Below, one piece after another: positions 1,906 to 32,624 of a DNA stretch of 32,624 nucleotides. The translations under genes were made by a program, and so were the position numbers. The notes under the pieces are model-generated. The model searched no databases and was not told where the DNA came from. It saw nothing but the letters and a program-made list of their open reading frames with translations. The stretch is from Candidatus Neomarinimicrobiota bacterium (GTDB taxonomy: Bacteria > Fidelibacterota > UBA2242 > B5-G15), in contig JACDNV010000023.1 of assembly GCA_017656425.1 (NCBI GenBank), positions 1 to 32,624 of the forward strand. The letters are read 5' to 3'. The first letter of the stretch is position 1. The number at the start of each line of letters is the position of its first letter.

Positions 1906-3432
1906 CTATATTATTTTTAAATACTTTCTAAATTCATTCCTTTCCATTTGTATCGTATTTGGGAAAAAATATAATAGTAAGTAAATAAAAACCAAGTAAA
2001 TAACTCCTGCAATCAAAACAACAAAAATAATATTTACTCGAAATCCAAAAATGGAAAATCCAAATTCAACAATCTTTTTTGAACTATATGCAAAAATAAT
2101 TAACAAAATAACATTCAGTTGGTAAATAACATCTATTTTCCATTTAAACATTTTTGATATTAAAATTATTTGTGCATTTATAGCAATAAATTGTAATAAT
2201 ACCATTTTTATTGTTAACCCTATTGATCCTAACTCCAAGCCTGGGATTGGACTTGAAGATGACGCTATGAAAATATAGGAAACCGGGATACCTAGCAATA
2301 AAAAAAAAGTTACAACAGACATATATTTTTTTGTTTTTTCAGTCGCCAAAAACATAGCCGAATTAATTTGACCCAACGATTGATGTATCGGATAAAAAAG
2401 CATAATACCTAAAGGTATATATGCGTCTTTATAATCAGGACCTAAAACTATTAATACAATATATTTCGTCCACATCAATAAAAAACATGTAATAACTGCT
2501 CCTACAAAATAAATTAATCTGGAAGTCTTCCTATACAAATTAAACAATTTTTTTTTATCATTATTTTTATTTGCCTCAGATATTTCTTTCCAAAATATTT
2601 TTATAATAGAAGAAGTAACCAAAAGACTTATCATTCCAAGTTTCTGTGAAACTGAAAAAAAACCCTGTTGTATTGATCCTCCGAAATGCTGAAGAAGCCA
2701 CTTATCAAAAAATATATTTAAAAAAGACATTATATAAAGCAATACTAAAGGAGAACAATAAGCATAATACTTTTTTACAATTTCCACTAAGGGCTCTTTT
2801 CCTTTATAAAAACAGTCATTATTTATTTCTAAAACTTTTAAGGATATTAAAGAAATAGTTACATATTCAACTATTATTATAATAAATAAATTACTAATAG
2901 TAATTTTATTTATTGATATTAAAATTAAAATGAAAAGAAAATGTAAGAATCCAACAGATACATTCATTAACTGAACAACAATTGTCTTTCTTAAAGATTC
3001 TCCAATATAAATAATTGTTTGCCATCCTTGATTCTTAGAAAAAGTAGCTATAAAAGCCAATATAATTAAGCTTTTATCATGGTTTTGCCAAATTATATTA
3101 ACCCATTTCTGCGGTAATATTATTGCAATTAATATTATAACACCTATAAATTGTAAGATTTGCCACAAAAAATAGACTATATAGAAATAAATTGTTTGTT
3201 TTTTCTGTGAAATGAAAGTATAAAATGCTTTTGAAGTCCCTAATTCTAAAAGCTCTCTAAATCCAATAAAAACTCCTATTAAAAAGGTGAAATTACCATA
3301 ATTACTAGGTCCTAGTTTTCGAGCTACTATTATTCCAGTAATAAAATTTATAATCATATATAAAAAGTTTGCTAATATTGAAACAATAGCTCGTTTCTTT
3401 ATACTTGGAGCTCCTATTTCTACATTGAACAT
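1906..3432 (-). CDS. wzx: Wzx-type flippase / polysaccharide transporter (MATE-like superfamily)
   Basis: This 508-residue, strongly hydrophobic protein has about 12-14 predicted membrane segments. The N-terminus [19 protein letters not shown] and [15 protein letters not shown] (about residues 35-50) is typical of the polysaccharide transporter family that flips undecaprenyl-linked repeat units to the outer face. Its place in the operon, between a LIC12162-family transferase and a TagF-like transferase, fits export of the cluster's glycan. Flippases diverge quickly, so the substrate cannot be read from sequence. Confidence 0.88.
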
Positions 3433-3476
3433 TTATTTATAAATATCCTTTATTTTTAATTTTCTTATATTGCCAA

Positions 3477-5156
3477 TTAAAGTTTCCAAAGTGTTTTAAT
3501 CCATTTCCAAAGCCAGCAGCGGTTAGTAAGTGCATATTTCTGACACCACTCTCGCACAGCCATTTGTATCTCTTCCTGAGACCACCATGCCTCTATATTA
3601 TTCCATACTTCATTTACCTTAAACGCAGCTTGCTCCCCTGAAGAGAAAATAATACCAACTTTTTCTAATCTGTCAAATATTTGTGTAGCTTGACGGCAAA
3701 GAGACCAAGAATTTTTATCCCAGAATCCAATAGTAGGTATATTTGCTGACAGAGAAATATTGAGTGTCGTCCCTGGATGATCTAAAACTATCAGTTTAGC
3801 TTTCATCATATCCTGATGTAATCTCCCATTTTTTATCATTAAATCTTTAAATTTAATGCGAAAATAATTATAATTATTTAATGCACCACTTTCATTTGGA
3901 TATGAATAAAATATTGTGTTATGGAAAACGTTGCTATCTAAATTATTTAAAAAATCAATCTTATGCTTTCTAGATTTTATTCTCTCTAATGGTTGAGGTA
4001 CAGATGCTAATCTATATGGAAAAATATATTCACGCGTGCTCACTAAAAGTAACTTACTTTTATTTCCAAAGCTTTTTCTTTTGAACTTTATCAAATATGG
4101 CGAAGGTAAGGGGATTATATTTCCGCCATAATCCTCCTGCTCTTCCCATCCCCATGAGAAAAAAGCTAAGTGATTATATTCAAATTCTGCTGGGAATGAA
4201 TATACTTTAGATATTCCACAATTACCCCCGTGTTGAGTACAAACTAGGTGTTCTCCATTTTCAACAGCACAAGCTAATTCAAATTTATCATCTTCATTCC
4301 AAAATAATAAAGGTCCGATTAAACGTATTTTACCTTCTTTAAATTTTCTTTTATTAGTGTTCTCAATGTTTCGAAATCTTAACGGCATAGTTTTTTCAAT
4401 CAACCACATAATATCTATCATCCAAGGTAATTGAATTGCGTTTTTTTCATTTATCTTGTCTTCCTTATAATCTATCTTTATCTTAGGTTTATTATGTAAT
4501 AATATAGATAGAAGAATAGAATTAAACAACCCTATTCCATATACTCCATAGCATCTGAAATGATGAAACAAATGACTTCTTAATGAATTTCTTAGTCCAA
4601 TTCTCTTTTTTGTTTTTAAGGGAAGTGTAACGCTTTTTTCGATATAACTAACTTTCCATTTTTTTGGTATAATCGCTTCAAATAAACGTGAGAAAAGCCA
4701 TTCATTATAATCCGGATTCAAAACACCCCGTTCTAAAAAATCGATAGAATCAATAAAATCCCATTCTATATCATTTTTTATTATATCGATAGAAATAATT
4801 TCATTTCCAAATTTTTTTAATACATATTCAATCCTTAACTGCTTTTCCCAAGTAGTATGCAAAAGTGTTAAAAGCCAAGGCTTTAAAATAATATTCCAAA
4901 ATTTCTCGGAGTATTGACAATTATTAATGACATTTAATTTTTTTACTAAGTCTGGTAATAAAGTGTTAATGTATCGAATAATATTATCCGAATCATTTTT
5001 CATATCATCAGATGATTGATATGGATCTGGAACTATTTTTAAAAACTCTATGTGCTCGAGATATTTTTCCCTATTATAGCAACACCACGGACCTATTAAT
5101 ATATCTTTAGAAATATCAAAATCATCCGGTACTGTACCAATTATTAATCTTTTCAT
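3477..5156 (-). CDS. LIC12162-family putative surface-carbohydrate transferase
   Basis: This 559-residue soluble protein resembles the LIC12162 family named from a Leptospira surface-carbohydrate locus that also carries nonulosonic-acid genes. Supporting features are the start RLIIGTVPDD with ILIGPWCC, a central FWNIILKPWL, and a C-terminal half with LVCTQHGGNCG, FYSYPNESG and LIVLDHPGTTLNISLSANIP. The last resembles the donor-site region of GT-B transferases. The exact reaction is not established; transfer of a nonulosonate-type sugar is an inference from the repeated co-occurrence. It is 12 bp downstream of the CBS-nucleotidyltransferase gene and clearly in the same operon. Confidence 0.75.
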   Translation of the reverse strand: MKRLIIGTVPDDFDISKDILIGPWCCYNREKYLEHIEFLKIVPDPYQSSDDMKNDSDNIIRYINTLLPDLVKKLNVINNCQYSEKFWNIILKPWLLTLLHTTWEKQLRIEYVLKKFGNEIISIDIIKNDIEWDFIDSIDFLERGVLNPDYNEWLFSRLFEAIIPKKWKVSYIEKSVTLPLKTKKRIGLRNSLRSHLFHHFRCYGVYGIGLFNSILLSILLHNKPKIKIDYKEDKINEKNAIQLPWMIDIMWLIEKTMPLRFRNIENTNKRKFKEGKIRLIGPLLFWNEDDKFELACAVENGEHLVCTQHGGNCGISKVYSFPAEFEYNHLAFFSWGWEEQEDYGGNIIPLPSPYLIKFKRKSFGNKSKLLLVSTREYIFPYRLASVPQPLERIKSRKHKIDFLNNLDSNVFHNTIFYSYPNESGALNNYNYFRIKFKDLMIKNGRLHQDMMKAKLIVLDHPGTTLNISLSANIPTIGFWDKNSWSLCRQATQIFDRLEKVGIIFSSGEQAAFKVNEVWNNIEAWWSQEEIQMAVREWCQKYALTNRCWLWKWIKTLWKL

Positions 5157-5168
5157 AAAAAGTATTAT

Positions 5169-6233
5169 TTAGAATAATTTTAAATATTTGATCGTTTCTT
5201 TATACTCTTCCCATTGCCCGACATCTAACCATGATTTTTCTGAAATTGGGAAGACTCCAACTCTTTTACCTTTTTTTAATATTATTTTAATTAAATCAGT
5301 TATATCAAAAGCTTCATTTTTAGGTATATAATCTAAAACCTCTGGATTAAAAATGTACATTCCTGTATTTACAAGTAAATCATAGCGGGGTTTTTCAATA
5401 AACATTTTCAGAATTCCACCATTTTCTATTTCACATATCCCATATGGAATTATATGGTGCTGCAATGAACATACGATTGTAATAATATACCCATTTTTTT
5501 TATGGAACTTATAAATCTCTGTATAATCACTCTTTATAATAATATCACAATTTGAAACGCAAAATGGAGTGTAAATCTCTCCTACTAGATATTTCAATGC
5601 ACCTATTGTTCCTAATGGTTTTTCCTCTTGGATAAAGGAAATATTATAATCGCCAGCAAAATCTTCAAAATATGCTTTTATCATTTTACCTTTATAATTT
5701 ATAGAAATATAAAAATTTTTCATCCCAAACTTAGCATACTCATCCATAATAATTTCTATAACAGTCTTATCACCTATAGGAATAAGGGGTTTGGGAAGAA
5801 TCCGCGTAAAAGGATCCAGTCTCTCACCTCTTCCACCTGCCATTATAACAACTGGTAAATTTATCTGATTGTATTTTATAGATTCTTCCCCACTATAAAA
5901 CTTCTCTTTTATAATTAAATCTACTAACTTTCCATTTTTAATAACCGGAATATGTTTGATTGGATTCTTCTTAAATATGTCTTTAATCTCCTTATCACTA
6001 TATTTCGGATCTATACTTATAAACCTCTTATTTGCAATCTTAATAACATCATCATCTAATGATACCCCTTTTAATATTGCTCTACGAAAATCCCCATCAG
6101 TAACAACACCACATATTTTACCAAACTCATTAGTAACTGCTATAAAACCTATTCCAATTTCATCCATTCTTTTAATGGATTCTCTAATTGTATAATTGTA
6201 CATGATAGTGTACTTATCAATGATTTTACTCAT
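5169..6233 (-). CDS. CBS-domain sugar-1-phosphate nucleotidyltransferase, PtmE-like
   Basis: Residues about 5-118 form a CBS pair (GVVTDGDFRRAI at 42-53; HIPVIKNGKLVDLI at 94-107), and residues 125-354 form an NTP-transferase domain with the nucleotide-binding signature GGRGERL (133-139) and KPLIPIGDK (148-156). The same order of domains is found in Campylobacter PtmE, which makes GDP-glucosamine for legionaminic acid. In this NeuB-containing operon the same role is likely. The CBS pair may sense nucleotide levels. The gene starts 30 bp after the cytidylyltransferase gene. The exact sugar and NTP are inferred. Confidence 0.8.
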   Translation of the reverse strand: MSKIIDKYTIMYNYTIRESIKRMDEIGIGFIAVTNEFGKICGVVTDGDFRRAILKGVSLDDDVIKIANKRFISIDPKYSDKEIKDIFKKNPIKHIPVIKNGKLVDLIIKEKFYSGEESIKYNQINLPVVIMAGGRGERLDPFTRILPKPLIPIGDKTVIEIIMDEYAKFGMKNFYISINYKGKMIKAYFEDFAGDYNISFIQEEKPLGTIGALKYLVGEIYTPFCVSNCDIIIKSDYTEIYKFHKKNGYIITIVCSLQHHIIPYGICEIENGGILKMFIEKPRYDLLVNTGMYIFNPEVLDYIPKNEAFDITDLIKIILKKGKRVGVFPISEKSWLDVGQWEEYKETIKYLKLF

Positions 6234-6262
6234 AACACTATTTCTCCATTAATTAATACTAA

Positions 6263-7069
6263 TTAAAGTTTTATCTCATTTATTTTTCCCTTTTCATCTA
6301 TATACTCTAAACTAACTTTGGCTTTTGTTCTTTTCCAATATTTTTTTTCTAAAAAATTATTAATCTTTACAATTTCAGGCCGCTTTTTTATAAGATTTAA
6401 TATATCATCGAAATGGAATATTTCTCCCTCTTTATATAATTCTCCAAAAATTACTTTGAAAAATTCAAAGTCCTCTGGATAATCAAGCGTAAGTCGAATA
6501 TTGTCATAGATATGGTTCTTTGATATAGGTTCTATATCTAGGTGCTTACACAATCCTGTCTTTGTAAAGTAGTATATAAAACCCGTATCATTACGTTTAG
6601 TTTTATATCTCTTATAAACTTTTTTTATTGCGTTCATGGAAAAAGATTGTGAACCAACTCCCAATGGTAGACTATAACATGTCACTATGTCCAATGTATT
6701 GTATGAAATCAATTTCTCCATTGTTAAATCCATATAACGTGGTTCAGCAGTGATATTATCTCCATTTATCTCTATTACATAATCAAAATTAAATTCATTA
6801 ATGGCATCGTAAAATCTTTTAATTATATCATTTCTCGATCCCCTGTAAACACTTGCACCATAACTCTTAACAATTTCCACTAACGGATCGTCTGAAACAT
6901 CATTTGTTGTACATACTACAACATTTTCTTTAGTTAAATATTTTGAGTTAAATACTCTATCTAATAAGTGACAGACTACAGGCTTACCACACAAAATTTT
7001 GATAGCTTTATTGGGTAATCTTTCAGATGTTAATCTTATAGGAATTAAAGCTCCAATCTTGGGTTTCAT
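6263..7069 (-). CDS. Cytidylyltransferase of the NeuA/SpsF type (probable CMP-nonulosonate synthetase)
   Basis: This 268-residue protein begins with a nucleotide-binding loop, ALIPIRLTSERLPNKAI (about residues 7-23), characteristic of CMP-sugar synthetases. It continues with VCTTND and GSRNDIIKRFYDAI, features closer to SpsF-like members than to classical NeuA. YVIEINGDN (about residue 97) supplies acidic residues expected to bind metal. In this operon it probably activates the NeuB product with CTP; SpsF-like specificity for another sugar acid cannot be excluded. Downstream genes follow with short gaps. Confidence 0.75.
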   Translation of the reverse strand: MKPKIGALIPIRLTSERLPNKAIKILCGKPVVCHLLDRVFNSKYLTKENVVVCTTNDVSDDPLVEIVKSYGASVYRGSRNDIIKRFYDAINEFNFDYVIEINGDNITAEPRYMDLTMEKLISYNTLDIVTCYSLPLGVGSQSFSMNAIKKVYKRYKTKRNDTGFIYYFTKTGLCKHLDIEPISKNHIYDNIRLTLDYPEDFEFFKVIFGELYKEGEIFHFDDILNLIKKRPEIVKINNFLEKKYWKRTKAKVSLEYIDEKGKINEIKL

Positions 7070-7089
7070 TATTTTTTATCCTTATTTAA

Positions 7090-8268
7090 AATAATTGATC
7101 GTTTTTTTTAATGCCTTGATCTTGGGTTCTGCCTCTTCAATACTTCTGTAATTATTAACAAACTGCATAATTTTAGGTTGAATTTCCTCTGCTACCGGGT
7201 AAATACCTCCACTATAAGAAATATTCTTATATAAACATGGACATCTTTTTTATATCCTTCAGATGAAAAAAAGGCTCTCCTCATATATTAATGTCCAAGC
7301 GACATAAATTCCATCTCCACCAAAATCAATATATTTTTTCTGAATTCTTGCCAGGGGACATTCTTAAGCTCATATTTAACTGCAACAGTCCAATATGTAT
7401 TTACATATCCTTCAGGTGTTTTTTGTGGAATTAAATATTCCCAATCTCTCATGACATCTAAAAACATATTCGTTATATCAATTCTTAATTTAACAAATGA
7501 ATCTATCTTTTCTAGCTGAGCTAATCCTATTGCTGCCCGCAACCTCAGACATTCTATAGTTTAATCCAAACGCATCATGCCTTTTATAGTTAGGATATTG
7601 AAAAACATTCTTATCCATTATACGTATTCTTCCACCTGCAGATTTCATGATCGCGTATCCTAAACTTCTAAATATTTCATTGTTTGAGCAAGCTCTTCAT
7701 CATTTGTAACTGCAATACCACCATCTTCTATTGTTATATGCTTTGAATTTTCCAAGCTATAGACAGTTATATGCGCAATTTCAGCGATAGAATGACCTTT
7801 ATACATAGCCATATGGGCTTCTGCGGCATCGTAAATGACATATAAATTATATTTTTCTGCAATTTCCATCATCTGATCTAAATCACATGATAATCCATAT
7901 AGAGACACAGGCATTAAAGCTTTAGTTTTCGGAGATATTTTATTTTTAATATCTTCCAAGTCTATATTAAATGTATCAGGATCAATATCTGCAAAAATCG
8001 GGACTGCATTTTGAGCTAATATTACCACTGCATTATAGATAACAGTTAATGGAGGGATAATAACTTCATCACCTGCTTGAACACCAACAGCGTCAAGAGC
8101 AACATGCAAGTCACTAGTACCAGAATTAAATGTAACTGCATATTTTGCACGAACTTTTTTTGCAAACGCTACTTCAAATCGTTTATTCATATTACCAGAT
8201 GGTCCTGACATTTCTCCATATTCTGGAACTTCTTTTAGATATTTAAAATCATTTCCTTTAAATCTCCA
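7090..8268 (-). pseudogene. DegT/DnrJ/EryC1/StrS aminotransferase, frameshifted (decayed)
   Basis: Three segments in different frames together cover one PLP-dependent sugar aminotransferase. The first segment, 8268-7660, includes YAVTFNSGTSDLHVALDAVG, AAEAHMA and the lysine motif ENSKHITIEDGG. A frame change near KYLEV leads into SLGYAIMKSAGGRIRIMD and DAFGLNYRMSEVA. Another shift leads to AAIGLAQLEKIDSF, and a final shift to FGGDGIYVAWTL and the tail YPVAEEIQPKIMQF. Several independent shifts make a pseudogene more likely than one sequencing error. It sits between neuB and the cytidylyltransferase. No ATG of its own is visible: the frame begins next to the neuB stop. Confidence 0.85.
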
Positions 8269-8271
8269 TTT

Positions 8272-9312
8272 TCAAAAAAGATATTCCCATTTTATGATTT
8301 CATCTTCCTCAATATCTCTATTTACTTTCCTGCCTATGACATATTTTAGCTCATCAGGCCTAATTTCGGTACCTGGGCGTTTAAAATCTAAATCTTCTTC
8401 TTTAATTATTTCACCTTTTTTAATATATCTCTTGGCCACAATACTTCTTCTAAATAAACCTCTTTGTTCCATTTCTGCATTTGAAATTACTCTTTTGTAT
8501 TCCCCTAAAGCATTTACTATTCTCTTTCCTTCTTTTATTATTATTTCCATTTCTTTTGAATTAGCGGAAATAGCATGATCCCACCCGGGTAAATTTTTAT
8601 CTAGAGTAAAATGCTTCTCAATTATTTTCGCTCCTAAAGCAATAGCAGCTAGAGGAATTGAAATCCCTATTGTATGATCAGAAAAACCAACGGGAACTTT
8701 AAACACATTCCCTAACATAATTATATTTCTCAGATTTATAATCCTATCGTCAGGTGGGTAAATTGATACACAATGCAATAAAACTACTTCTCTATTACCC
8801 GTTTTATAAATCTCATTTAAAGAAGTTTCTATTTCAGCTAAACTTCCCATTCCTGTAGATAAAACTATTGGTTTTTTCTTTTTTGCTATGTACTTCAAGA
8901 ATGGTAGATTATTTAAATCCATTGATGCAACTTTAAAAAAAGGAACATTTAACTCATCTAAAAGGTCAACCTCTTCTGGTGAAAACGCACTTGAACAAAA
9001 TGTGATGTGTCTGGTTCTACAATGCTCACTTAGTGTAATTAAATCATCTTGAGAAAGAGCAAATTTCTCTACCATTTGCTCAAGTGTTCCGAACCTTTCA
9101 TCTGAAAAGCTAGATCTTTCTTTATAAAAGCTCATCACAAATAATGATTTTTTTGACCAAGACTGAAATTTTGCTGCATCACAGCCTAATTTTGAAAGTT
9201 TATCAACCATTTTCTTTGCTAATTCAATATCGCCGTTATGATTTGCACCGATATCAGCAATGATATAAGGTTCTTTTCTTTCTATTATCTCCTGATAAAA
9301 ATTATTACGCAT
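8272..9312 (-). CDS. neuB: NeuB-family nonulosonic acid synthase (N-acetylneuraminate/legionaminate synthase type)
   Basis: The protein is 346 residues, the usual length. Residues 1-260 form the NeuB TIM-barrel domain, with YIIADIGANHNGDIELAKKM near the start, AAKFQSW, FFKVASMDLNN, LSTGMGSLAEIE, GFSDHTIG and IEKHFTLDKNLPGWDHAIS. Residues 285-343 form the C-terminal SAF (antifreeze-like) domain, with RRSIVAKRYIKKGEII. The family condenses PEP with a 2-acetamido sugar to form a nine-carbon sialic-type acid. LegB and LegC relics and a PtmE-like gene in the cluster suggest the legionaminate branch, but NeuB specificity cannot be read directly. The start overlaps the glycosyltransferase gene by eight bases. 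Confidence 0.93.
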   Translation of the reverse strand: MRNNFYQEIIERKEPYIIADIGANHNGDIELAKKMVDKLSKLGCDAAKFQSWSKKSLFVMSFYKERSSFSDERFGTLEQMVEKFALSQDDLITLSEHCRTRHITFCSSAFSPEEVDLLDELNVPFFKVASMDLNNLPFLKYIAKKKKPIVLSTGMGSLAEIETSLNEIYKTGNREVVLLHCVSIYPPDDRIINLRNIIMLGNVFKVPVGFSDHTIGISIPLAAIALGAKIIEKHFTLDKNLPGWDHAISANSKEMEIIIKEGKRIVNALGEYKRVISNAEMEQRGLFRRSIVAKRYIKKGEIIKEEDLDFKRPGTEIRPDELKYVIGRKVNRDIEEDEIIKWEYLF

Positions 9313-20262: not shown

Positions 20263-21324
20263 TCAACATATTCCAATAACATATGGTTCTTCGTAAAGTA
20301 ATATTCTGCGCACTCTTCGAGCCAGGCTATTTGCTATGGAAATTATAGCCTTTGTCTTTGCTTTTCCATGAGAAACACGATTGAATTTATCAAGCAAAAA
20401 TGGATCACGGCGAATTGCTTGCCAGGATGCCTCAACAAATATATTGCGTAGAATTCGATTTCCCATATGTGTCAATGAACCTCTTCGTATTTGTTCGCCA
20501 CTGGAATGTTCTGAGGGCGATAACCCTATATACGAAATAAACTTATAATAACTTGGAAAACGATTAATATCACCAACTTCTAATATAATTGTCATTGCTG
20601 ATAAAAGACCTATTCCAGGAACTGTTCTTAATAATTTTACCTTAGCCTGATATCTTTCCAATCTAGATAACTCAACGATTATTCGGTCTAACCTGTAAAT
20701 ACTACTTTTGATCTCTTCGTATTCATCCAGCATAAAATTGAATGCCTTATGATAATATTTATCTTCAAATGGAGGAGAACGTAACCACATTATAAAGTCC
20801 TTTGACCAATATCGGTTCCTATTATCTGATAGTCGTATACCATAAAACATTAAATCAGATTTTATCTGATTCTGTATAATCACCTTACGTTTCATAAATT
20901 GTGCCCTTTTCCTGAGTATGCTGCGATGATATACCTCCTCAGATTCCGGAATCCTTATAGCAACCAGATCACCTCTTGCTAGTTCCCTTGCCAATCTACG
21001 ACTATCATTTTTATCTGTCTTTACGCAACTACCCGGTTTAATAGGTATGTTTTGAGGTGACACTATGATAGTTGAAATGCCTATGCCGTTTAGATAATTA
21101 GCAAGCCCATAACCAAAACAACCTGCCTCATAAACAGCCTTAAATTGTGCACCAGGAAAGTGTGCCTTTAATGTTTTCACTAACTTCTCTTTCTCAGGTG
21201 GTGCAACAAAACTCTTGTGTTCACAATGCTTGCTCCTTATCGTAACTGACCATTTTTTTCTATGTAGGTCAATTCCTATGAATAATGTTTGCCCCGTCCA
21301 ATCCTTAATATTACCTTTGTCCAT
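20263..21324 (-). CDS. IS110-family transposase (DEDD, RNA-guided type)
   Basis: This 353-residue protein has the IS110 architecture. The RuvC-like N-domain carries the DEDD tetrad at about Asp19 (FIGIDLHRKKW), Glu66 (YEAGCFGYGL), Asp104 and Asp107 (KTDKNDSRRLA). The C-terminal domain has LLRTVPGIGLLSAMTIILE and IGLSPSEHSSGEQIRRG, containing the candidate nucleophilic serine (Ser274/275), then THMGNRILRNIFVEASW. It is full length and probably active. Members of this family recombine DNA with a bridge RNA encoded in a non-coding end of the element. The element ends lack terminal inverted repeats and I cannot place them. Its RBS is held in a hairpin. Confidence 0.92.
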   Translation of the reverse strand: MDKGNIKDWTGQTLFIGIDLHRKKWSVTIRSKHCEHKSFVAPPEKEKLVKTLKAHFPGAQFKAVYEAGCFGYGLANYLNGIGISTIIVSPQNIPIKPGSCVKTDKNDSRRLARELARGDLVAIRIPESEEVYHRSILRKRAQFMKRKVIIQNQIKSDLMFYGIRLSDNRNRYWSKDFIMWLRSPPFEDKYYHKAFNFMLDEYEEIKSSIYRLDRIIVELSRLERYQAKVKLLRTVPGIGLLSAMTIILEVGDINRFPSYYKFISYIGLSPSEHSSGEQIRRGSLTHMGNRILRNIFVEASWQAIRRDPFLLDKFNRVSHGKAKTKAIISIANSLARRVRRILLYEEPYVIGIC

Positions 21325-21380: not shown

Positions 21381-21707
21381 TTATTATTAAACATAAAAAC
21401 TTCGAGATGAGATGAGACTGGCTAGCCAGGTGGTAGCAGAACCTTGAACTTCGAAAATTGAGCTTATGGACTTTGAACTTCTACCCTCATTATGCCAAAC
21501 TAACTATGTCTGCAAAGATAAGATACGCTTCTCACAGTGATCTATATAAAATGTAAAAATTACTCCCAATTCCTATAGGGAAATTCATATAAACCTATTT
21601 GAAATCATTGAGTATTATATTATTGAAGAACACATTTTTGATTTTTTGAATAACTTATAAAAACGCTATTTATATTGAGAATTTTAAAAATAAAGAACCT
21701 GTCCAAT
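21381..21707. other. Gene-free spacer
   Basis: It contains GAGATGAGATGAGACTGGC, similar to a stretch at 25378-25400, and a short run of CTTGAACTTCG / ACTTTGAACTTC near 21443-21485. No gene or clear regulatory site is seen. Confidence 0.5.
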
Positions 21708-25239: not shown

Positions 25240-25437
25240 ATTTTTCTTGCTTGCTGGCTTTCAGGCTATCAAGCTTGCAGGCTTGCCCCGAAGGTTCGAT
25301 AGAACTCCTTCGGAGGGTCCCTTTCCCATAGGTTCATAGAACTCCTTCGGAGTATCTCTTTACCAAAGGGATCTCCTTGAGATGAGACGAGATGAGACAA
25401 GCTGGCCGGCTTGCAGGCTTGTTCGCTTATTAGCTTG
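25240..25437. repeat. Repeat cluster: mini-hairpins and GCTTGCAGGCTTG units
   Basis: At 25289-25373 are units containing ATAGAACTCCTTCGGAG (twice), TCCCTTTCCCATAGG and TCTCTTTACCAAAGGGA. They have the small CTCC-TTC-GGAG and TCCC-ATA-GGGA hairpin pattern seen at 19841-19898 and in the IS256 insertions. Around them are GCTTGCAGGCTTG-type repeats, with related sequence at 25800-25830 on the other side of the four-helix-bundle gene. Confidence 0.6.
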
Positions 25438-25788
25438 TTACCCGCTAATCTTCTTATAAAACCTCCAAAGGAGTTTCCCAAGTTGACTTCTAATACTTTC
25501 CAAATTCTGATAGCTGCTTTCATCAAGGTAACCTAATTTGAAAGAAAAACTTAATAGATATTCCACCTCCGCAAGAGAACCTATAGCTATGTTTACAAAC
25601 CTTGTTAATTCTTTATCGCCTTTTCTTGAATAGCCTTCTACAATATTTGTTGGAATTGATACTGCGGCTCTTCTTAACTGTGAAACTATGCCAAACATCT
25701 CTTCTTTTGGGAATGTTCCTGTGGTCTTATATACTTCATAAGCAAATTCATCTGCCAATTTCCAGACCTTTAAGTTTTTATAGGTCAT
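25438..25788 (-). CDS. Four-helix bundle protein (23S rRNA intervening-sequence protein family)
   Basis: This 116-residue protein starts YKNLKVWKLADEFAYEVYK and carries FGIVSQLRRAAVSIPTNIVEGYSRKG and SLAEVEYLLSFSFKLGYL, the conserved blocks of the S23/IVP-like four-helix bundle family. Members often lie in repetitive accessory DNA or inside 23S rRNA genes; their molecular function is not settled. Here it is bounded on both sides by related GCTTG/GCTAAC-type repeats, as if carried as a cassette. The family assignment is firm. Confidence 0.9.
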   Translation of the reverse strand: MTYKNLKVWKLADEFAYEVYKTTGTFPKEEMFGIVSQLRRAAVSIPTNIVEGYSRKGDKELTRFVNIAIGSLAEVEYLLSFSFKLGYLDESSYQNLESIRSQLGKLLWRFYKKISG

Positions 25789-25864
25789 GATGGATGTGAA
25801 GCTTGTTAGCTAGCAGGCTAACAGGTTTGTATGCTTTTACGCTGGCAAGCTCGCTCGCAATGGA

Positions 25865-25902
25865 ACCTTAAACTATGAACATTGAACTTCGGAACTTATA
25901 AA
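25865..25902. repeat. Short TTGAAC-type repeat at ATPase 3' end
   Basis: It reads AACCTTAAACTATGAACATT then GAACTTCGGAAC, a degenerate form of the right-hand arm of the larger bipartite repeats. It abuts the stop codon of the ATPase gene. Confidence 0.55.
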
Positions 25903-27216
25903 TCACCCCAACGCCCACTGATAAAAAGGCTTGACTTCAATCTCTAAGCCATTTCGCTCAAAACTCGCTCTCAGGTCTCTGGTAATGATAAGAGCTTTGC
26001 TTACCTTGAATTCCTTTGCCGCCAGTTCCAACGCACGAATCTCTCGAGTCTCACTTTTCTCCGACGTTAAATCGTAGCACACCTGGATAAGAGGGAATTC
26101 ATCATTCTGACCGAAAAACTGTGGCAGAACAAAATCAACTTCATACCCGCTGGAACTCTTCCAGTAATAGAGGTCGTCATATTTTCGATAAAGATGGCAG
26201 AAGACCATGTTTTCAAGAAGGCGTCCCCAGTCCTTTTCCTTAATAAAAGATGTTACCTGATACATTCCATTATCCAGTAGATAGAACTTTTTCGGATACT
26301 GGAGCTGGTCCTTCACCAAATAGGAAAATATGGATACCGTCTTCCCTAAAAACGCATCTTCAAGATAGCCCAGATACTCAATCAGCGTGCTTTTGGACAC
26401 CTTGAATCCGATCGACTCTAAACTTGCAGCCATTTTCCCCATACTAACCAGACAGGACATCTGGCGGGTGAGAATTTTTATAAAGTTATCCAGTACTTTT
26501 ATCTGACGGATGCTGTAACGTTGAACAATATCAGCGAAAAAAACGGTGTGAAGATACTCTTTCAGGATAGCCTCTTTTTCCTGCATCGTCTCCGCCAGCA
26601 CAACTTCAGGGAATCCACCATACCTCATATATTGTGAAAAAAAGAACAGAATTTCATTCTTTCGACCGGAATAGGGCAAACGATCTATTTGAGGAACCTG
26701 TACCCCTTTGAAGCCCAGATATTCTCGAAAAGAAAGGGGAAACACTTTATATGTCAATGTACGCCCCCTGAGAGCCGTAGCAATATCAGAGCTCAACATT
26801 TTTGAATTCGACCCAGTTATAAACAACTTAACATTGGCTTCGGTCTCATAAATCCGCCAGATGACTTTCTCCCAGTTTGGAACGTTTTGAATTTCATCCA
26901 GAAATAAAAAGATTGGCGCCTCAGGAGCAACCTCAAAAAACTGCCTGTATACATCCAGCAGTTTCGCAAGTTCTCCACCCTCGAATGGTAAAAGCCTATC
27001 ATCTTCATAATTAATATAAACTATATTCTGCGATGGCACATCTTTCCTTAACTTACTAATAAGCTGAAAAAAAAGAGTGCTCTTGCCGCTTCTCCGAGGA
27101 CCAATGAGAACAGGAATTAACCGTGTATCAAGCAGACCGTCATAACCATTTCTTTCAATAAATGGTGGAATCTGATACTCAAACCACCATTGCAAAATAT
27201 TCTTTAATTTCTCCAT
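25903..27216 (-). CDS. AAA+ ATPase with DUF4143 nuclease-like C-terminus (first of three)
   Basis: The best start is ATG 27216; a TTG two codons upstream (27222) is also open. Counting from the TTG, Walker A is GPRRSGKST (41-49), Walker B is IFLFLDEIQ (104-112), and sensor/arginine features are LFITGSNSKML and LRGRTLTY, followed by YGGFPEVVL. The C-terminal DUF4143 region has YPKKFYLLDNGMY, RLLENMVFCHLYRK and YYWKSSSGYEVDFVL, a restriction-endonuclease-like motif. The family is abundant in repeat-rich genomes and its role is uncertain. It is not a close duplicate of the other two here. No Shine-Dalgarno is visible; instead AATATCGTTTAAT occurs twice, 33 bases apart, just upstream. Confidence 0.9.
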   Translation of the reverse strand: MEKLKNILQWWFEYQIPPFIERNGYDGLLDTRLIPVLIGPRRSGKSTLFFQLISKLRKDVPSQNIVYINYEDDRLLPFEGGELAKLLDVYRQFFEVAPEAPIFLFLDEIQNVPNWEKVIWRIYETEANVKLFITGSNSKMLSSDIATALRGRTLTYKVFPLSFREYLGFKGVQVPQIDRLPYSGRKNEILFFFSQYMRYGGFPEVVLAETMQEKEAILKEYLHTVFFADIVQRYSIRQIKVLDNFIKILTRQMSCLVSMGKMAASLESIGFKVSKSTLIEYLGYLEDAFLGKTVSIFSYLVKDQLQYPKKFYLLDNGMYQVTSFIKEKDWGRLLENMVFCHLYRKYDDLYYWKSSSGYEVDFVLPQFFGQNDEFPLIQVCYDLTSEKSETREIRALELAAKEFKVSKALIITRDLRASFERNGLEIEVKPFYQWALG

Positions 27217-27220
27217 TGCC

Positions 27221-27266
27221 AATATCGTTTAATGTATAATTCGATTTGCTTATAATATCGTTTAAT
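27221..27266 (-). promoter_or_regulatory. Duplicated 13-bp motif upstream of ATPase 1
   Basis: AATATCGTTTAAT occurs at 27221-27233 and again at 27254-27266 on the plus strand, with a 33-base period. The proximal copy touches the start region. It is a candidate operator. Confidence 0.45.
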
Positions 27267-27406
27267 ATACTATACAATACACCAGATTCCAAACTTTAAA
27301 ACCCTAAACTTTGAACATAGAACCTTGAACTCCTGAACTTCAAATCTAACCCCACAACTTTATCCACAGCCCCACCGCCTTAGCCACATCGGGACAAAAG
27401 CGGAAG

Positions 27407-27815
27407 CTATACAACTATCCTAATCTGGTTAATAAACTCCAGAACTTCGTCGAGATTATCTCGTGCGTAAAGGCAAATCTTATCCTTACTGAGCGTGTCA
27501 TAATCATGAGCTAAAAAATTTCTGAATCCTGCAATCCTGGCAAAAGAATAGGCAAATTCCTTATCTAAAATGCCGTTTTCTCCCAAAATATCAAACGCCT
27601 CTGCATAGCTCTGTGGTGGTCTAAGATTTTTATATCTGATAACCATCTCGGCAATAGCCACACAGGAATCAGCTATTAGATATAGATAGTGTAGTAAAGC
27701 ACCCCGGTAAATTTCCTCATCAAATCTTTTTTTCACAGTCAGGAGCTAACTCTTTAACAATTTTAACGTATTTTTCCAGTCTGAACAGTTTTTGTTTCAA
27801 TCTTTCTATTGTCAT
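27407..27815 (-). pseudogene. hepT: HepT-type HEPN toxin, frame broken at an A7 run
   Basis: The ATG at 27815 overlaps the mntA stop (ATGA). It begins MTIERLKQKLFRLEKYVKIV then KELAPDCEK before running into TGATGA. The rest (DEEIYRGALLHYLYLIADSC to the end at 27407) is in another frame, joined at GTGAAAAAAAGATTTG: six A's instead of seven would give one continuous protein of about 135 residues. The HEPN RNase motif RNFLAHDY (RX4HXY) is intact. The downstream part alone could start from the GTG at 27736. HepT is neutralised by MntA-catalysed AMP transfer in studied systems. The shift may be a mutation, a slippage site or a base-calling error. Confidence 0.85.
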
Positions 27816-28204
27816 ACTCCTATAATCATCTTTCTTTGATGCATGAAATCAAGGGCCTGATGGTGAATTCGTACCTCATAGTCTAATCGCACCTCCGGAT
27901 TTGAGTCGAAAATGACAGTTCCATTGGTAACAATTTCATCGGCCAGAATCAGATTCCGCAAATTGTTTAAAATAATGACATCTATATCATTCCGCTTCAG
28001 AAGCCGTGTACAATCTGTATATAGAGCCAATTTAAGATCGAATGCATCTTCCTGTGAGTCAACATAAAACGCAAGGTCAATATCACTCAATGGGGAATAA
28101 TCATGGCTTGCTGCGGTACCAAATAGATAGGCAAATACAATCCTGCCCTTATAAGCTTTAAAAAGAGGTTGCAATTCCTTTTTAATCATTTTGAATCTAT
28201 TCAT
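27812..28204 (-). CDS. mntA: MntA-type nucleotidyltransferase antitoxin
   Basis: This 130-residue minimal nucleotidyltransferase has FGTAASHDYSPLSDIDLAFYV, a GSX10DXD motif in which the serine is replaced by threonine (Gly29-Thr30, Asp41, Asp43). A third acidic position lies in RNDIDVIILN (about Asp75). LADEIVTNGTVIFD and LDYEVRIHHQALDF follow, as in antitoxins that AMPylate HepT. Its stop overlaps the hepT ATG. No promoter was identified. Confidence 0.9.
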   Translation of the reverse strand: MNRFKMIKKELQPLFKAYKGRIVFAYLFGTAASHDYSPLSDIDLAFYVDSQEDAFDLKLALYTDCTRLLKRNDIDVIILNNLRNLILADEIVTNGTVIFDSNPEVRLDYEVRIHHQALDFMHQRKMIIGV

Positions 28205-28290: not shown

Positions 28291-28577
28291 CTACATACTT
28301 TTTTCATTCGCTATATATCCCGAATCTTTCAATAATCTCAGCCAATACTTAGCCTCTTTTACTTCCTTATAATGCTATATTCATCTTAGCTAAAAACTCT
28401 CTCTTACTCTACGCTGACTCAGCCTCCTCAACATTCGCACCTATCAACGTCCCAGATCTCAAAAGTTGCTTTGAGAAAACAAATTCTTTTTTATGCTCAA
28501 TTAAAAGTTTATAAACCTCTATCATATCTAATGCAAACTCATAACTTTTATTCAATATCAAATTATTTCCAACTATT
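28291..28577 (-). pseudogene. Four-helix bundle (S23-like) protein, decayed
   Basis: On the minus strand the reading is GNNLILNKSYEFALDMIEVY then KLLIEHKKEFVFSKQLLRSG and TLIGANVEEAESA, followed by a stop. SKREFLAKMNIAL continues past the stop, and after a frameshift EVKEAKYWLRLLKDSGYI. SKQLLRSGT.IGAN.EEA is the family's hallmark. At least one stop and one shift show it is inactive. Confidence 0.85.
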
Positions 28578-28579
28578 TT

Positions 28580-28690
28580 CAACCCCTAATTCTCAATTCT
28601 TAATTCTCCATTCTACACTATCTATCAATCCTCTAATTCTACATTCTCAATTCTACATTCTACATTCTTAATTAAGCATTCTACATTATC
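28580..28690. repeat. Low-complexity ATTCTACATTCTCAATTC tract
   Basis: It consists of repeated, imperfect TTCTCAATTC, TTCTTAATTC and TTCTACATTC decamers with no coding sense. A complementary-style tract (AATGTAAAATG units) lies at 29017-29075, beyond two other repeats. Confidence 0.7.
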
Positions 28691-28716
28691 TTTTACGGTT
28701 TCACAACCCTTCGATG

Positions 28717-28866
28717 TTAAAGAGTTCAACGTTAAGAAAGTTCAACGTTCAACGTTAAAGAGTTCAACGTTAAGAAAGTTCAACGTTCAACGTTAGAGAG
28801 TTCAATGTTACCACCTGCGCAAACTTAGAACGTAAAACCTTGAACCTTGAACTTTGAACTTCAAAT
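28717..28866. repeat. Bipartite GTTCAACGTT / TTGAAC repeat, unit 1
   Basis: The left arm has GTTCAACGTTAAGAAA and GTTCAACGTTCAACGTT repeats. A conserved core, ACCACCTGCGCAAACTTAG and AACGTAAAACC, follows. The right arm is CTTGAACCTTGAACTTTGAA, roughly the inverse complement of the left. The core is nearly identical to that of unit 4. Confidence 0.85.
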
Positions 28867-29015
28867 TACGGCTTCGCCACCTCAGTCACATTAACTGAGA
28901 TGGCATAGTAATTAACGAGGAAAAAAGTTTAAACAATTTGACTTATATCACTACCATATATCTTTTCAAATCGTGCTAAAATTTATATTTATGTCAAGGT
29001 TTATGCAAGGAAAAG
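28867..29015. repeat. Dispersed ~150-bp repeat, copy 2
   Basis: It matches 19618-19802, from TACGGCTTCGCCACCTCAGT to TTTATGCAAG, with about 35 bases fewer in the middle and a two-base shorter hairpin loop. It lies directly against the right arm of repeat unit 1. Confidence 0.75.
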
Positions 29016-29016
29016 A

Positions 29017-29075
29017 ATGAGTAATGAATAATGAATAAAGAATAATGTAAAATGTAAAATGTATAATGTAAAATG
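29017..29075. repeat. Low-complexity AATGTAAAATG tract
   Basis: Imperfect repeats of AATGAATAATG, AATGTAAAATG and AATGTATAATG make up the tract. It is non-coding. Confidence 0.65.
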
Positions 29076-29139
29076 TTTACGAGTGATGGTGGTTTTTATT
29101 GTTGATTGAATTTGCTATGGAATTTATAAACTTCTATTT

Positions 29140-29195
29140 TCTCAGGAAAAAATCAAACGCCCTTTCCAGCACTAAATTATTTCCTCTCACAATTA
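29140..29195 (-). pseudogene. Possible N-terminal scrap of a second four-helix-bundle gene
   Basis: A short minus-strand reading, VRGNNLVLERAFDFFLRK and a stop, resembles the first helix of the relic at 28291-28577 (GNNLILNKSYEFA). It is too short to be sure. Confidence 0.35.
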
Positions 29196-29236
29196 ACACA
29201 CCATACTTCACTCTTCATTATACATTATACTTAGGA

Positions 29237-29567
29237 GAGTTCAACGTTAGAAAAGTTCAACGTTCAACGTTTAGGGAGTTCAACGTTTAAAAAGTTCAAC
29301 GTTCAACGTTAGGAGAGTTCAACGTTAAGAAAGTTCAACGTTCAACGTTTAGGGAGTTCAACGTTAAGAGAGTTCAATGTTCAACTTTAGGAAGTTCAAT
29401 GTTTAAAGAGTTCGACGTTAGAAAAGTTCAACGTTCAACGTTATGAAGTTCAATGTTACTACCTGCATAAATTTAGAACGTAAAACCCCGAACCTTGAAC
29501 TTTGGAACCTTGAACTTTGAACTTTGAACTTTGAACCTTGAACTTCGGAACTTTGAACTTCGAACTC
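29237..29567. repeat. Bipartite GTTCAACGTT / TTGAAC repeat, unit 2
   Basis: This is the longest left arm (to about 29455), with many GTTCAACGTT copies spaced by AGAAA or AGGGA. The core is diverged (ACTACCTGCATAAATTTAG then AACGTAAAACC). The right arm of TTGAACTTTGAAC units runs up to the stop codon of ATPase 2. Confidence 0.85.
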
Positions 29568-30851
29568 TTACTCCACACTCCACTTCCAGAAGGGTTTTAT
29601 TATTACTGTTATGCCATCTATTTCCTTTATTTCCTCATTGTCGAAAGTAACGACTACAGCTTCTTTTAGATTAAAGCGCTTTGCCGCCTCTATTACCCCT
29701 CCCAATTCCCTTTCTTTGTTATCCTCATCCAACTTCCATGTCACCTGAAAGACCATAAACCTGTCATCACTTTTCACTATAAAATCGCATTCATATCTCT
29801 CCTGAAAATAAAAGACTTCATACCCTTTTCTTCTCAACTCTATAAAAACTGCATTCTCTAACAGACGCCCGTAGTCCATTGAGCTAACTCTTCTGGACAA
29901 TCCAACGTCAATGAGATAAACCTTAACTGGATTTCTCATCCTTTTATAGGTCGATTCAGCAAACTTTTTCACTTCAAAAATTAACATGCTCTCAAGAAAA
30001 TATTTATAGTAAGCATAAAGACTATCTTTGGAGAAAGAAAACCTACCTTTATATTGCTTATAAAAAGCAGTTAAGGAAAATCTCGTTGAAAAGGACGAAA
30101 ATAATTTATCCCATAAAGCGTCTAATAAAACTATATTCCCAACTTTAAACCTTTCAACAATATCTCTAAAAAACATTGCATTAAGATATTCTTTCAATAC
30201 CTTTCTCTTGTCAAATTCAGTTGGAGAAAAAGTTACTTCCGGAAATCCTCCAAACTTCAAATACTCACCAAAACAATTCTTCGTATATACTTTTCCACTC
30301 CCATAAAATAGTTTTTCTCTTGAAAGATCATACCCTTTTGAAACTAAAAACTCTCTAAATGAGAAAGGAAAAACTTCCAGACTCCAGACTCTACCCCTTA
30401 AGGATGAATGGATTCTCCGGGGAGTTATCTCAGATGAAGAACCCGCACAATATACCGATATACCTTCCTTTTCAACCAACCTCCTTACAAATCTTTCCCA
30501 TAACCCAGTATCCTGAATTTCATCAAATAGAAATACTACATTATTCTGGGATAACAAATGGGGTTTTAACTCAAAAAATGCTTCTCTAATCCTATCAATC
30601 TCCTCAATCTTAATATTAGAAAGCCGTTCATCTTCAAAGTCAATGTATAACGAGCGCCCCCTATTCTTTCGAAACAAATCATAGAGAATAAAACTTTTGC
30701 CACTCCTTCTAACACCATGAAATACTACCACCTTCTTTAAATTTTCCGATGGGAGCGCTATCCCTTCCCTCGGGACAACACCTTTTATCTGACCTATAAT
30801 AAAGTTCTCGTTTTCTATGATTATACTCTTTATAAGCTCATTACTAACCAT
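29568..30851 (-). CDS. AAA+ ATPase with DUF4143 C-terminus (second of three)
   Basis: The protein is 427 residues. Walker A is GVRRSGKS (46-53) and Walker B is VVFLFDEIQ (105-113). YCAGSSSEI, LRGRVWSLEVFPFSFREFL and FGGFPEV follow. In the C-terminal part are NPVKVYLIDVGLSRR, RLLENAVFIELRRKG and RYECDFIVKSD, the DUF4143 nuclease-like region, then AVVVTFDNEE. Its 5' side faces the left arm of repeat unit 3 and its stop abuts the right arm of unit 2. AAAAGGATAAAT supplies an RBS before ATG 30851, and the same RBS-like block is repeated 33 bases upstream, where it precedes a six-codon frame (ATG to TAA). Confidence 0.9.
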   Translation of the reverse strand: MVSNELIKSIIIENENFIIGQIKGVVPREGIALPSENLKKVVVFHGVRRSGKSFILYDLFRKNRGRSLYIDFEDERLSNIKIEEIDRIREAFFELKPHLLSQNNVVFLFDEIQDTGLWERFVRRLVEKEGISVYCAGSSSEITPRRIHSSLRGRVWSLEVFPFSFREFLVSKGYDLSREKLFYGSGKVYTKNCFGEYLKFGGFPEVTFSPTEFDKRKVLKEYLNAMFFRDIVERFKVGNIVLLDALWDKLFSSFSTRFSLTAFYKQYKGRFSFSKDSLYAYYKYFLESMLIFEVKKFAESTYKRMRNPVKVYLIDVGLSRRVSSMDYGRLLENAVFIELRRKGYEVFYFQERYECDFIVKSDDRFMVFQVTWKLDEDNKERELGGVIEAAKRFNLKEAVVVTFDNEEIKEIDGITVIIKPFWKWSVE

Positions 30852-30903
30852 ATTTATCCTTTTAATAAGGACAAACTATCATATATTTATCCTTTTAAAA
30901 AGG
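30850..30903 (-). promoter_or_regulatory. Duplicated RBS/palindrome motif upstream of ATPase 2
   Basis: ATATTTATCCTTTTAA occurs at 30850-30865 and 30883-30898 on the plus strand. On the coding strand each copy gives TTAAAAGGATAAATAT; the distal copy sits in the near-palindrome CCTTTTTAAAAGG and is followed by its own ATG with a six-codon frame. This may be an operator pair, a leader peptide or both. Confidence 0.5.
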
Positions 30904-30908
30904 TTAAA

Positions 30909-31171
30909 TAGTTCAATGTTAGAAAAGTTCAATGTTAAGAGAGTTCAACGTTCAACGTTAGGAAAGTTCAACGTTTAGGGAGTTCAACGTTTAAAAAGTT
31001 CAACGTTCGACGTTTAACATTTACTACCACACAAAACTTTGAACTCTGGAACCTTGAACGTTGAACTTCGGAACTTTGAACTTTGGAACTTTGAACTCTG
31101 AAACCTTGAACGTTGAACCTTGAACGTTGAACCTTGAACGTTGAACTTTGAACTTCGGAACCTTGAACTCC
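30909..31171. repeat. Bipartite GTTCAACGTT / TTGAAC repeat, unit 3
   Basis: The left arm runs to about 31020. The core is the most diverged (ACTACCACACAAAACTTTG). The right arm has perfect CCTTGAACGTTGAA tandems and reaches the end of ATPase 3. The right arm is open in one minus frame (FKVPKFKVQ-like), which is an artefact of the repeat. Confidence 0.85.
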
Positions 31172-32356
31172 TTAAATTGCACATGCAGGAATAATCCCTT
31201 TCTCATCCACATAATCCTTTGAAACAACGAAATACCTATCAATCCCCATTCCTTTTGCCAGTTTTCTCAGCCTATCGTAATCTGCTCTTATACCTCTACT
31301 TTTAACTCCAAACGCAATACCCGCCTCAGGAAGTACAAAATCCACTTCCCCACCTCTCCTTTTCTGATAGTAACACAACTTCCCATACTTCCTGAGATTT
31401 AAATAAACCGCATTCTCCAGGAGCCTACCTTCCCCCACTCTACCAAAAAGATTCAATATTCCTGTATCACAGACATATATTTTCTTTGCTCCACTCACTT
31501 CTCTATCCACATTCCCGGAATAAGGAGGAACCATAAAAAGAAAGTAAGTTCCTTCCAGAAATGAAAGATACGAATAAACCGTCTCTCTTGTCACACCCAG
31601 CTCGGACGAAAGCCTTGTAATATTTAACTTTGAACCTACTCTCTGAAGAATCAAAAACATCAACTCCCGAAAAACCTTCATACTCCTGAAATCAGCAAGA
31701 CTTCTAACATCCTTTTCAAAATATGATGAAAATATATCTTTAATGTGCGATTCTTTACGCCTGATGTCATCGGCAAGTACAACCTGAGGAAATCCACCGT
31801 ACATCAGGTATTCTTCATAATACTTTTTTACCTTTTCATACAGAACAATTGTTTTAGTACTCTCCTTCCGTTCAAAATCCTCCGGGAAGCTTATATCAAG
31901 CTCCTTAAAAGTCAAAAACTCGTCAAAAGATAGAGGAAACAGCTCGAAAACCACCTTTCTTCCAGCAAGACTTTCCGGAAACATGTTTTTAAAATAAAAA
32001 CTACTTGAACCAGTCAAAAAGAACTTAACATCGTAATGGTCGTAAAGGTATTTAACAACTCTCACCACTTCTGGTGCTGACTGTATCTCATCAATAAAAA
32101 TATATGCTTTCTTTTTCTTATCTACCCCAAAAGAGGCAAGATTCAGCCATACATTATTGAAATCCACTTCATCAAACACCCTTTGCTCAATAATATTCTC
32201 CATATCCAGCATAACCTTGTTGGTGGAGTCTACCTTATCATAAATCATCTTCAGGAGAGTTGTTTTTCCCGTTCTCCGCATTCCTGTGACAACGATTATT
32301 TCCTTCGAGTCTATCCAGGGTTCTATTTCCTTTAAGATCCTTCTTGGATACAGCAC
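31172..32356 (-). CDS. AAA+ ATPase with DUF4143 C-terminus (third of three)
   Basis: The longest frame opens at TTG 32371, but that codon overlaps the junction with the -10 box; GTG 32356 (codon 6) is the better start and may begin a leaderless message. Numbering from the TTG, Walker A is GMRRTGKTT (30-38) and Walker B is YIFIDEIQ (90-97). FFLTGSSSFYF and LAGRKVVFELFPLSFDEFL follow, then YGGFPQVVL. A winged-helix-like segment, ITRLSSELGVTRETVYSYL, precedes the DUF4143 part GAKKIYVCDTGILNLFG, RLLENAVYLNLRKYG and GGEVDFVL. It is bounded by repeat units 3 and 4. Confidence 0.88.
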   Translation of the reverse strand: MLYPRRILKEIEPWIDSKEIIVVTGMRRTGKTTLLKMIYDKVDSTNKVMLDMENIIEQRVFDEVDFNNVWLNLASFGVDKKKKAYIFIDEIQSAPEVVRVVKYLYDHYDVKFFLTGSSSFYFKNMFPESLAGRKVVFELFPLSFDEFLTFKELDISFPEDFERKESTKTIVLYEKVKKYYEEYLMYGGFPQVVLADDIRRKESHIKDIFSSYFEKDVRSLADFRSMKVFRELMFLILQRVGSKLNITRLSSELGVTRETVYSYLSFLEGTYFLFMVPPYSGNVDREVSGAKKIYVCDTGILNLFGRVGEGRLLENAVYLNLRKYGKLCYYQKRRGGEVDFVLPEAGIAFGVKSRGIRADYDRLRKLAKGMGIDRYFVVSKDYVDEKGIIPACAI

Positions 32357-32362
32357 GATATT

Positions 32363-32391
32363 AGTATACAATTTATATACAAAATTGTCAA
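32363..32391 (-). promoter_or_regulatory. Consensus sigma-70-type promoter for ATPase 3, with repeated TTGTATA
   Basis: On the coding strand TTGACA (32391-32386) is followed after exactly 17 bases by TATACT (32368-32363). Transcription would start near 32356, on the GTG codon. The spacer contains TTGTATA twice, 11 bases apart, which could be an operator overlapping the promoter. Confidence 0.65.
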
Positions 32392-32414
32392 CTATAAACC
32401 GACATTTGGGGATG

Positions 32415-32624
32415 AGAGTTCAATGTTAGGAAAGTTCAACGTTAAGAGAGTTCAACGTTCAACGTTAGGAGAGTTCAACGTTAAGAGAGTTAAACGTTCA
32501 ACGTTATAGAAGTTCAATGTAACCACCTGCGCAAACTTAGAACGTAAAACCTTGAACCTTGAACTTTGGAACCTTGAACTTTGAACTTTGAACTTTGCAC
32601 TTTGAACCTTGAACTTCAGAACTC
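32415..32624. repeat. Bipartite GTTCAACGTT / TTGAAC repeat, unit 4 (runs off the edge)
   Basis: The left arm of GTTCAACGTT units with AGGAGA spacers is followed by the core ACCACCTGCGCAAACTTAG and AACGTAAAACC, identical over about 30 bases to unit 1. The right arm of TTGAACTTTGAAC units continues to the window end. Confidence 0.85.

Follow-up and report, generated by a model that had tools for sequence, protein, structure and literature searches.

The end of a contig from Candidatus Neomarinimicrobiota carries palindromic repeat units that separate small genes, and this region is probably part of a repeat-bounded cassette array whose modules have been exchanged laterally, most likely by homologous recombination between direct repeats, the latter step being our inference. 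The window analysed here is the whole of contig C23 (32,624 bp) of the source genome G000, a 2.8-Mb draft of 50 contigs and 99.7% completeness. Genome-wide counts given for G000 derive from pattern and family searches.

The original prediction had described four bipartite units at the end of the window, and all four were found in their places with left-arm words, core and TTGAAC right-arm words. On the plus strand the units read from left to right (GTTCAACGTT…)n, core AGTTCAATGTTACYACCTGCRCAAAYTTAGAACGTAAAAC and (TTGAACN)n. Unit 1 (28717-28862) consists of a left arm at 28724-28809, a core at 28799-28838 and a short right arm at 28836-28859, and unit 2 (29236-29567) of a long left arm at 29239-29457, a core at 29447-29486 and a right arm at 29490-29566. 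Unit 3 (30908-31170) has a variant core at about 31015-31044 and a long right arm. The contig ends within unit 4 (32412-32624), which has a left arm at 32418-32505, a core at 32511-32550 and a right arm truncated by the contig end. Within the window GTTCAACGTT occurred 84 times with up to one mismatch (1.7 expected from shuffles) and the 19-base core three times with up to three mismatches (0.01 expected). Left-arm words preceded right-arm words in every dense cluster. The left arm showed a super-period of 16+23 = 39 bases, and the right arm a period of seven with occasional 8-base steps.

The core design that had been proposed for all units is shared by units 1, 2 and 4, but unit 3 carries the variant TTTACTACCACACAAAACTTTGAAC, which the core search missed. 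Units 1 and 4 are indeed identical in their cores, over roughly 47 bases (from about 28810 to 28856) rather than the 30 or so claimed before. The 40-base cores have a mean identity of 93% (80-97% between genera) and are more conserved than the remainder of the unit; sequence differences between units amount to 8-25%, the repeats being about 75-92% alike. Arm length is variable and arm ends are not fixed, so that target duplications cannot be read. Units 2-4 folded more strongly than shuffled sequences, folding was weak for several shorter units elsewhere, and for several units it hardly exceeded that of shuffles. The mean folding z over units was -2.8 for the top and -3.5 for the bottom strand, the bottom strand folding better in 11 of 16 units. 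Cruciform formation, suggested earlier, is conceivable from this predicted folding.

ATPase 2 (29568-30851, minus strand, 427 aa) and ATPase 3 (31172-32371, minus strand, 399 aa from a TTG start), both with Pfam domains AAA_14 and DUF4143, each lie between the right arm of one unit and the left arm of the next, as had been described. The right arms had also been said to reach the stop codons, and this is nearly exact: the stop codon of ATPase 2 is one base beyond the right arm of unit 2, and ATPase 3 is 2-4 bases from the right arm of unit 3. The distance from the start to the next left arm is about 60 bp for ATPase 2 and about 47 bp for ATPase 3. Both cassettes contain a promoter-like site of their own, a good one for ATPase 3 (TTGACA-17-TATACT, 32391-32363, minus strand) and a weaker one for ATPase 2 (30907-30878, minus strand). 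The interval between units 1 and 2 (28863-29235) has no intact gene and contains plain 7-base arrays (AATGAAT, TAATGTA) at 29016-29076. The ATPase 1 block (25864-27335, minus strand) includes a gene at 25903-27222 with the same AAA_14 and DUF4143 domains, and right-arm remnants at 25864-25893 and about 27290-27335. A HepT-like gene (27407-27736) and an MntA-like nucleotidyltransferase gene (27812-28204), both on the minus strand, adjoin the array and are not located between two full units.

Mapping of the core across the whole of G000 with up to three mismatches returned eight matches, three at the end of C23 and five at the start of contig C11, all on the plus strand; alignment added unit 3 and one more unit on C11. 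Such units, in the same polarity, form both the end of C23 and the start of C11, so these contigs may adjoin each other in the genome. Variant or partial units occur on C27, C14 (at its end) and C4. These are solitary and stand beside other MITE-like repeats. Among 100 relatives the only other true carrier was G001, a genome of the same family and a second genus, and among 244 genomes of the phylum searched at the nucleotide level, unit-wide matches to the C11 array occurred in G000 and G001 only. A core match in G047 lay within a coding frame, had no arms and was not counted as a unit. The exact core in Vibrio penaeicida, the single GTDB match, likewise lacked arms and is at chance level for a 19-mer in 257 Gb. 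Searches of viral contigs, plasmids and phages for the repeats gave no match.

The units on C23 enclose the gene-less interval, ATPase 2 and ATPase 3. Those on C11 enclose a MITE-like block (twice), a DUF2283 gene, a fourth DUF4143 ATPase, a DUF2283/DUF4258 pair and HicB, beside which a HicA-like stretch has no intact frame. The modules of G001 are a counterpart of ATPase 1 with a DUF6364/PIN pair, HicAB, DUF2283 and the MITE-like block, and another contig of that genome adds a coiled-coil gene and AbiEii with an AbiEi-like partner. Whether DUF4143 ATPases and HepT/MntA genes are enriched between cores had been posed as a check. The ATPases fit this, five of the six DUF4143 genes of G000 lying in roughly 14 kb that bear the repeats, while the HepT/MntA genes of the window adjoin the array. 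Three of the six are strictly between two full units, two are beside partial or variant units and one (on C16) has no units nearby. Tandem duplication of one ATPase as the origin of the array was ruled out, since the five DUF4143 proteins near units are only 24-36% identical to each other.

Evidence for exchange came from the comparison of G000 with G001. The ATPase 1 block is 97.5% identical over 1386 bp to a unit-bounded block on G001 contig C242, the HicAB block 86% over 750 bp and the DUF2283 block 87% over 417 bp. The MITE-like block plus unit matched at 94%, the AbiEi end plus its unit at 93%, and the ATPase on C27 matched G001 contig C274 at 93%. Common blocks are thus 86-98% identical against a background nucleotide identity of 64-72% for other genes in 20 kb of C11. 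They lie on three separate G001 contigs and have different neighbours there. Module order differs too, with DUF2283-HicAB on C11 and HicAB-DUF2283 in G001. A simple inversion fails to explain this swap because genes and units keep their strands. Within C11, positions 100-466 and 2812-3179 are 95% identical and span unit to unit, which represents a duplication. The ends of common blocks are mostly in or directly beside repeat arms, with the exception of the C11 end of the DUF2283 block, which is outside any unit. In every array the units stand head to tail whatever the direction of the genes, and gene strand varies between modules. Cores without genome-wide spread and modules common to a second genus, there in other order and with other neighbours, support the idea of repeat-gene-repeat cassettes that are gained, lost or exchanged.

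Some caution applies to these comparisons. Both genomes are drafts (G001 is 86% complete), short-read assembly can misjoin at repeats, and the one carrier relative has its units on short contigs. Assembly error could explain a given module order, but not an identity of 86-98% against a background of 64-72%. The 3.7-kb contig C242 could be misbinned. It would then stem from a third lineage, because a divergence of 13-14% separates its HicAB and DUF2283 blocks from their G000 counterparts.

We propose that head-to-tail palindromic units separate small self-contained modules, either ATPase or toxin-antitoxin genes, and that these modules are acquired or lost, duplicated, rearranged and transferred among related bacteria at the repeats or beside them. 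Movement would occur by recombination between directly repeated units. In its simplest form, RecA-type homologous recombination would excise a circle of one module and one unit, which could reinsert at another unit. Single-stranded or broken DNA at the palindromic arms may help, and the toxin-antitoxin genes would help the array to be retained. RecA-type pathways ordinarily recombine direct repeats that have 30-50 identical bases in common, and head-to-tail units regardless of gene direction fit the insertion and loss of circles at direct repeats. The occurrence of the core at the ends of only two contigs, the similarity of the cores and the promoter-like site inside the ATPase 3 cassette further argue for a cassette array. 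The divergence between unit pairs would lower homologous recombination and counts against it, as do similar heptamer arrays without the core between ordinary genes elsewhere and the breakpoint outside any unit.

Could the units instead be true site-specific recombination sites? A distant or unrecognised recombinase, integron-like or of the Xer/dif-module type, might act on the 40-base core or on a folded strand, which we consider unlikely. Besides the better conservation of the core and the uniform polarity, it would account for the folding of most units above shuffles with the bottom strand favoured, as in attC sites (PMC2727003), and toxin-antitoxin modules are also carried by dif modules (PMC6449649, PMC13141974). 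Profile PF00589 matched two full Xer-type genes (on C10 and C5) and three broken relics in G000 and nothing in G001, and there was no integron integrase among these matches in either genome. The two full genes, of Xer size, count slightly in favour of this reading; XerC and XerD are present in most bacteria, and their presence says little. Paired attC boxes R'' (RYYYAAC) and R' (GTTRRRY) were found by pattern in 3 of 19 units, unit 2 being unscored since the core finder missed it, and no dyad in the core exceeded chance, the dyad test being a weak one. The best dif-like dyad (two 11-base arms with a 6-base spacer) scored 7 of 11, which 200 of 500 shuffles reached, but E. coli dif itself scores 6 on this measure, which fails to single it out either. 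The several units that fold hardly above chance also speak against a site of this kind. Core conservation and average folding nevertheless keep a site-specific or strand-folding mechanism open. A broader version, improbable in our view, is a dedicated cassette-exchange system without IntI that would shuffle ATPase and toxin-antitoxin modules at the 40-base core or folded strand, with the heptamer-flanked DUF4143 islands of other families as relatives using other words. Three further explanations were considered. That the heptamer arrays are debris of slippage and chance spread in gene-poor islands, where toxin-antitoxin genes accumulate and general instability causes the apparent shuffling, we regard as rather unlikely. 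Many other 7- and 8-base arrays exist in G000, and in other genomes arrays occur between ordinary genes and, among the matches listed, across the G036 chromosome, but debris would not explain a core conserved between genera and absent from the rest of G000, the fixed polarity, the unit-to-unit blocks or the exchange of order with strands kept. It is very improbable that the units serve as transcription terminators or regulatory RNA hairpins of the adjoining genes. In favour of this, the stop codons of ATPases 2 and 3 abut right arms and long hairpins could form in transcripts, yet a terminator model found no terminator-like site in 28600-32624 where shuffles gave 2.1, an Rfam search of the units had no match, unit orientation is independent of gene orientation, and several units show hardly any folding beyond that of shuffles. 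An origin of the units as independent MITE- or REPIN-type elements inserted between genes would be suggested by the solitary variant units near other MITE-like repeats, and this we likewise hold to be highly unlikely. The core is confined to one array, arm length varies without fixed ends, and insertion alone fails to explain module exchange. A RAYT/REPIN identity found no support either in this confinement or in the Y1_Tnp profile, which matched once in G000, inside an 817-aa frame, and not in G001.

The preferred reading, a cassette array moved by homologous recombination, can be compared with known systems. Of the known ways to maintain shuffled arrays of small gene cassettes, integrons and dif modules are the main ones. 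As in integrons and CALINs (attC clusters lacking integrase), small modules with toxin-antitoxin content lie between palindromic sites and their order is shuffled between relatives; the sites of the array all point the same way, and the modules that they separate have been exchanged. Unlike in integrons, there is no integron integrase, which a CALIN would not require; unlike in both, attC box pairs are rare, the arms are long tandem heptamers and gene strand is not tied to the site. In dif modules, neighbouring sites alternate in orientation, unlike the units here, which are all head to tail and in whose core the weak dyad measure singled out no dif-like dyad. Shared with dif modules are the two Xer-type recombinases of G000 and the shuffling of toxin-antitoxin modules, which on Acinetobacter plasmids takes place between repeats that are XerC/XerD sites (PMC13141974, PMC6449649). 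REP sequences and REPINs with their RAYT transposases are also intergenic palindromes in several copies, but the present units are clustered in one array, much longer and without a clear RAYT gene. Known heptamer repeats such as TAACTGA in Beggiatoaceae and Bacteroidetes (PMC4679880) and heptamer satellites (PMC6749651) share the 7-base tandem words between genes and the unexplained origin. Those are direct repeats, however, whereas the units here combine two arrays in inverted orientation around a conserved core and delimit exchanged modules. We found no description of such an arrangement in the open-access literature searched. An array with the layout, polarity and toxin-antitoxin content of integrons or dif modules but without their sites would mean either that repeats and ordinary recombination suffice to produce a cassette organisation or that there is a further recombination system.

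Other genomes of the phylum also carry plain heptamer arrays that lack this core, some of them between ordinary genes. G036, which belongs to another family and consists of a single contig, has an island at C1:2144000-2156000 (L193, about 2150-9150 in the locus) that encodes a HigAB-like pair, two DUF4143 ATPases, an AbiE-like remnant and an IVP-type gene, all on one strand, with the HigAB, AbiE and IVP assignments made by eye. Between its modules stand composite units built from different heptamer words (AGTCGAA, GTGACGC, AATTCAT), which among the matches listed are spread over the chromosome. A strand bias of these arrays along the chromosome, again among the matches listed, was striking at first and was then dropped. 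In 19 DUF4143 regions from other genomes, a period-7-type array was present within 400 bp of 10 of 23 DUF4143 frames and of none of 22 other frames (p = 0.0006, an optimistic value, the regions having been picked non-randomly for DUF4143 matches and several coming from the same genomes). The association of DUF4143 with heptamer arrays is wider than the family of G000 and G001, and a cassette array may explain why, in some genomes of the phylum, these ATPases and toxin-antitoxin genes are located amid heptamer repeats.

Several smaller observations concern the same loci. An IS110-type transposase gene (Transposase_20, 20263-21324) is situated about 4.5 kb away from the array and has beside it, at 21434-21487, a short and degenerate stretch that resembles a right arm. 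A 23S_rRNA_IVP (four-helix) gene or remnant with a plain ATTCTAC/AATTCTC array is found at 28313-28690 of the window and at 5574-5884 of C11. The two copies with their array are 85% identical and resemble a cassette with another repeat type. Intergenic regions of G000 and G001 often contain octamer arrays (GCTAACAA and GCTAGATG words) and a MITE-like repeat, GTCATTGCGAGGAGTCC...GACGAAGCAATCT, for example at 25249-25450 and 25800-25865 of the window, L057 5160-5330, and L174 1-170 and 3080-3260. Both ends of the G001 contig C242 (L053, 3682 bp) are within the same MITE-like block; either two copies of it flank this contig or the contig is a closed circle of about 3.7 kb. The DUF4258 partner of DUF2283 on C11 (L038, 3305-3756) is absent in G001 (L053, 111-395), where a left arm begins just upstream of the DUF2283 start codon. 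In both genera a coiled-coil protein family (MPVVTVKKPLREKLGDDG...) has the same left arm directly after its stop codon (L055 191-634; L057 about 5733-6057, minus strand; L130 3244-3576, minus strand).
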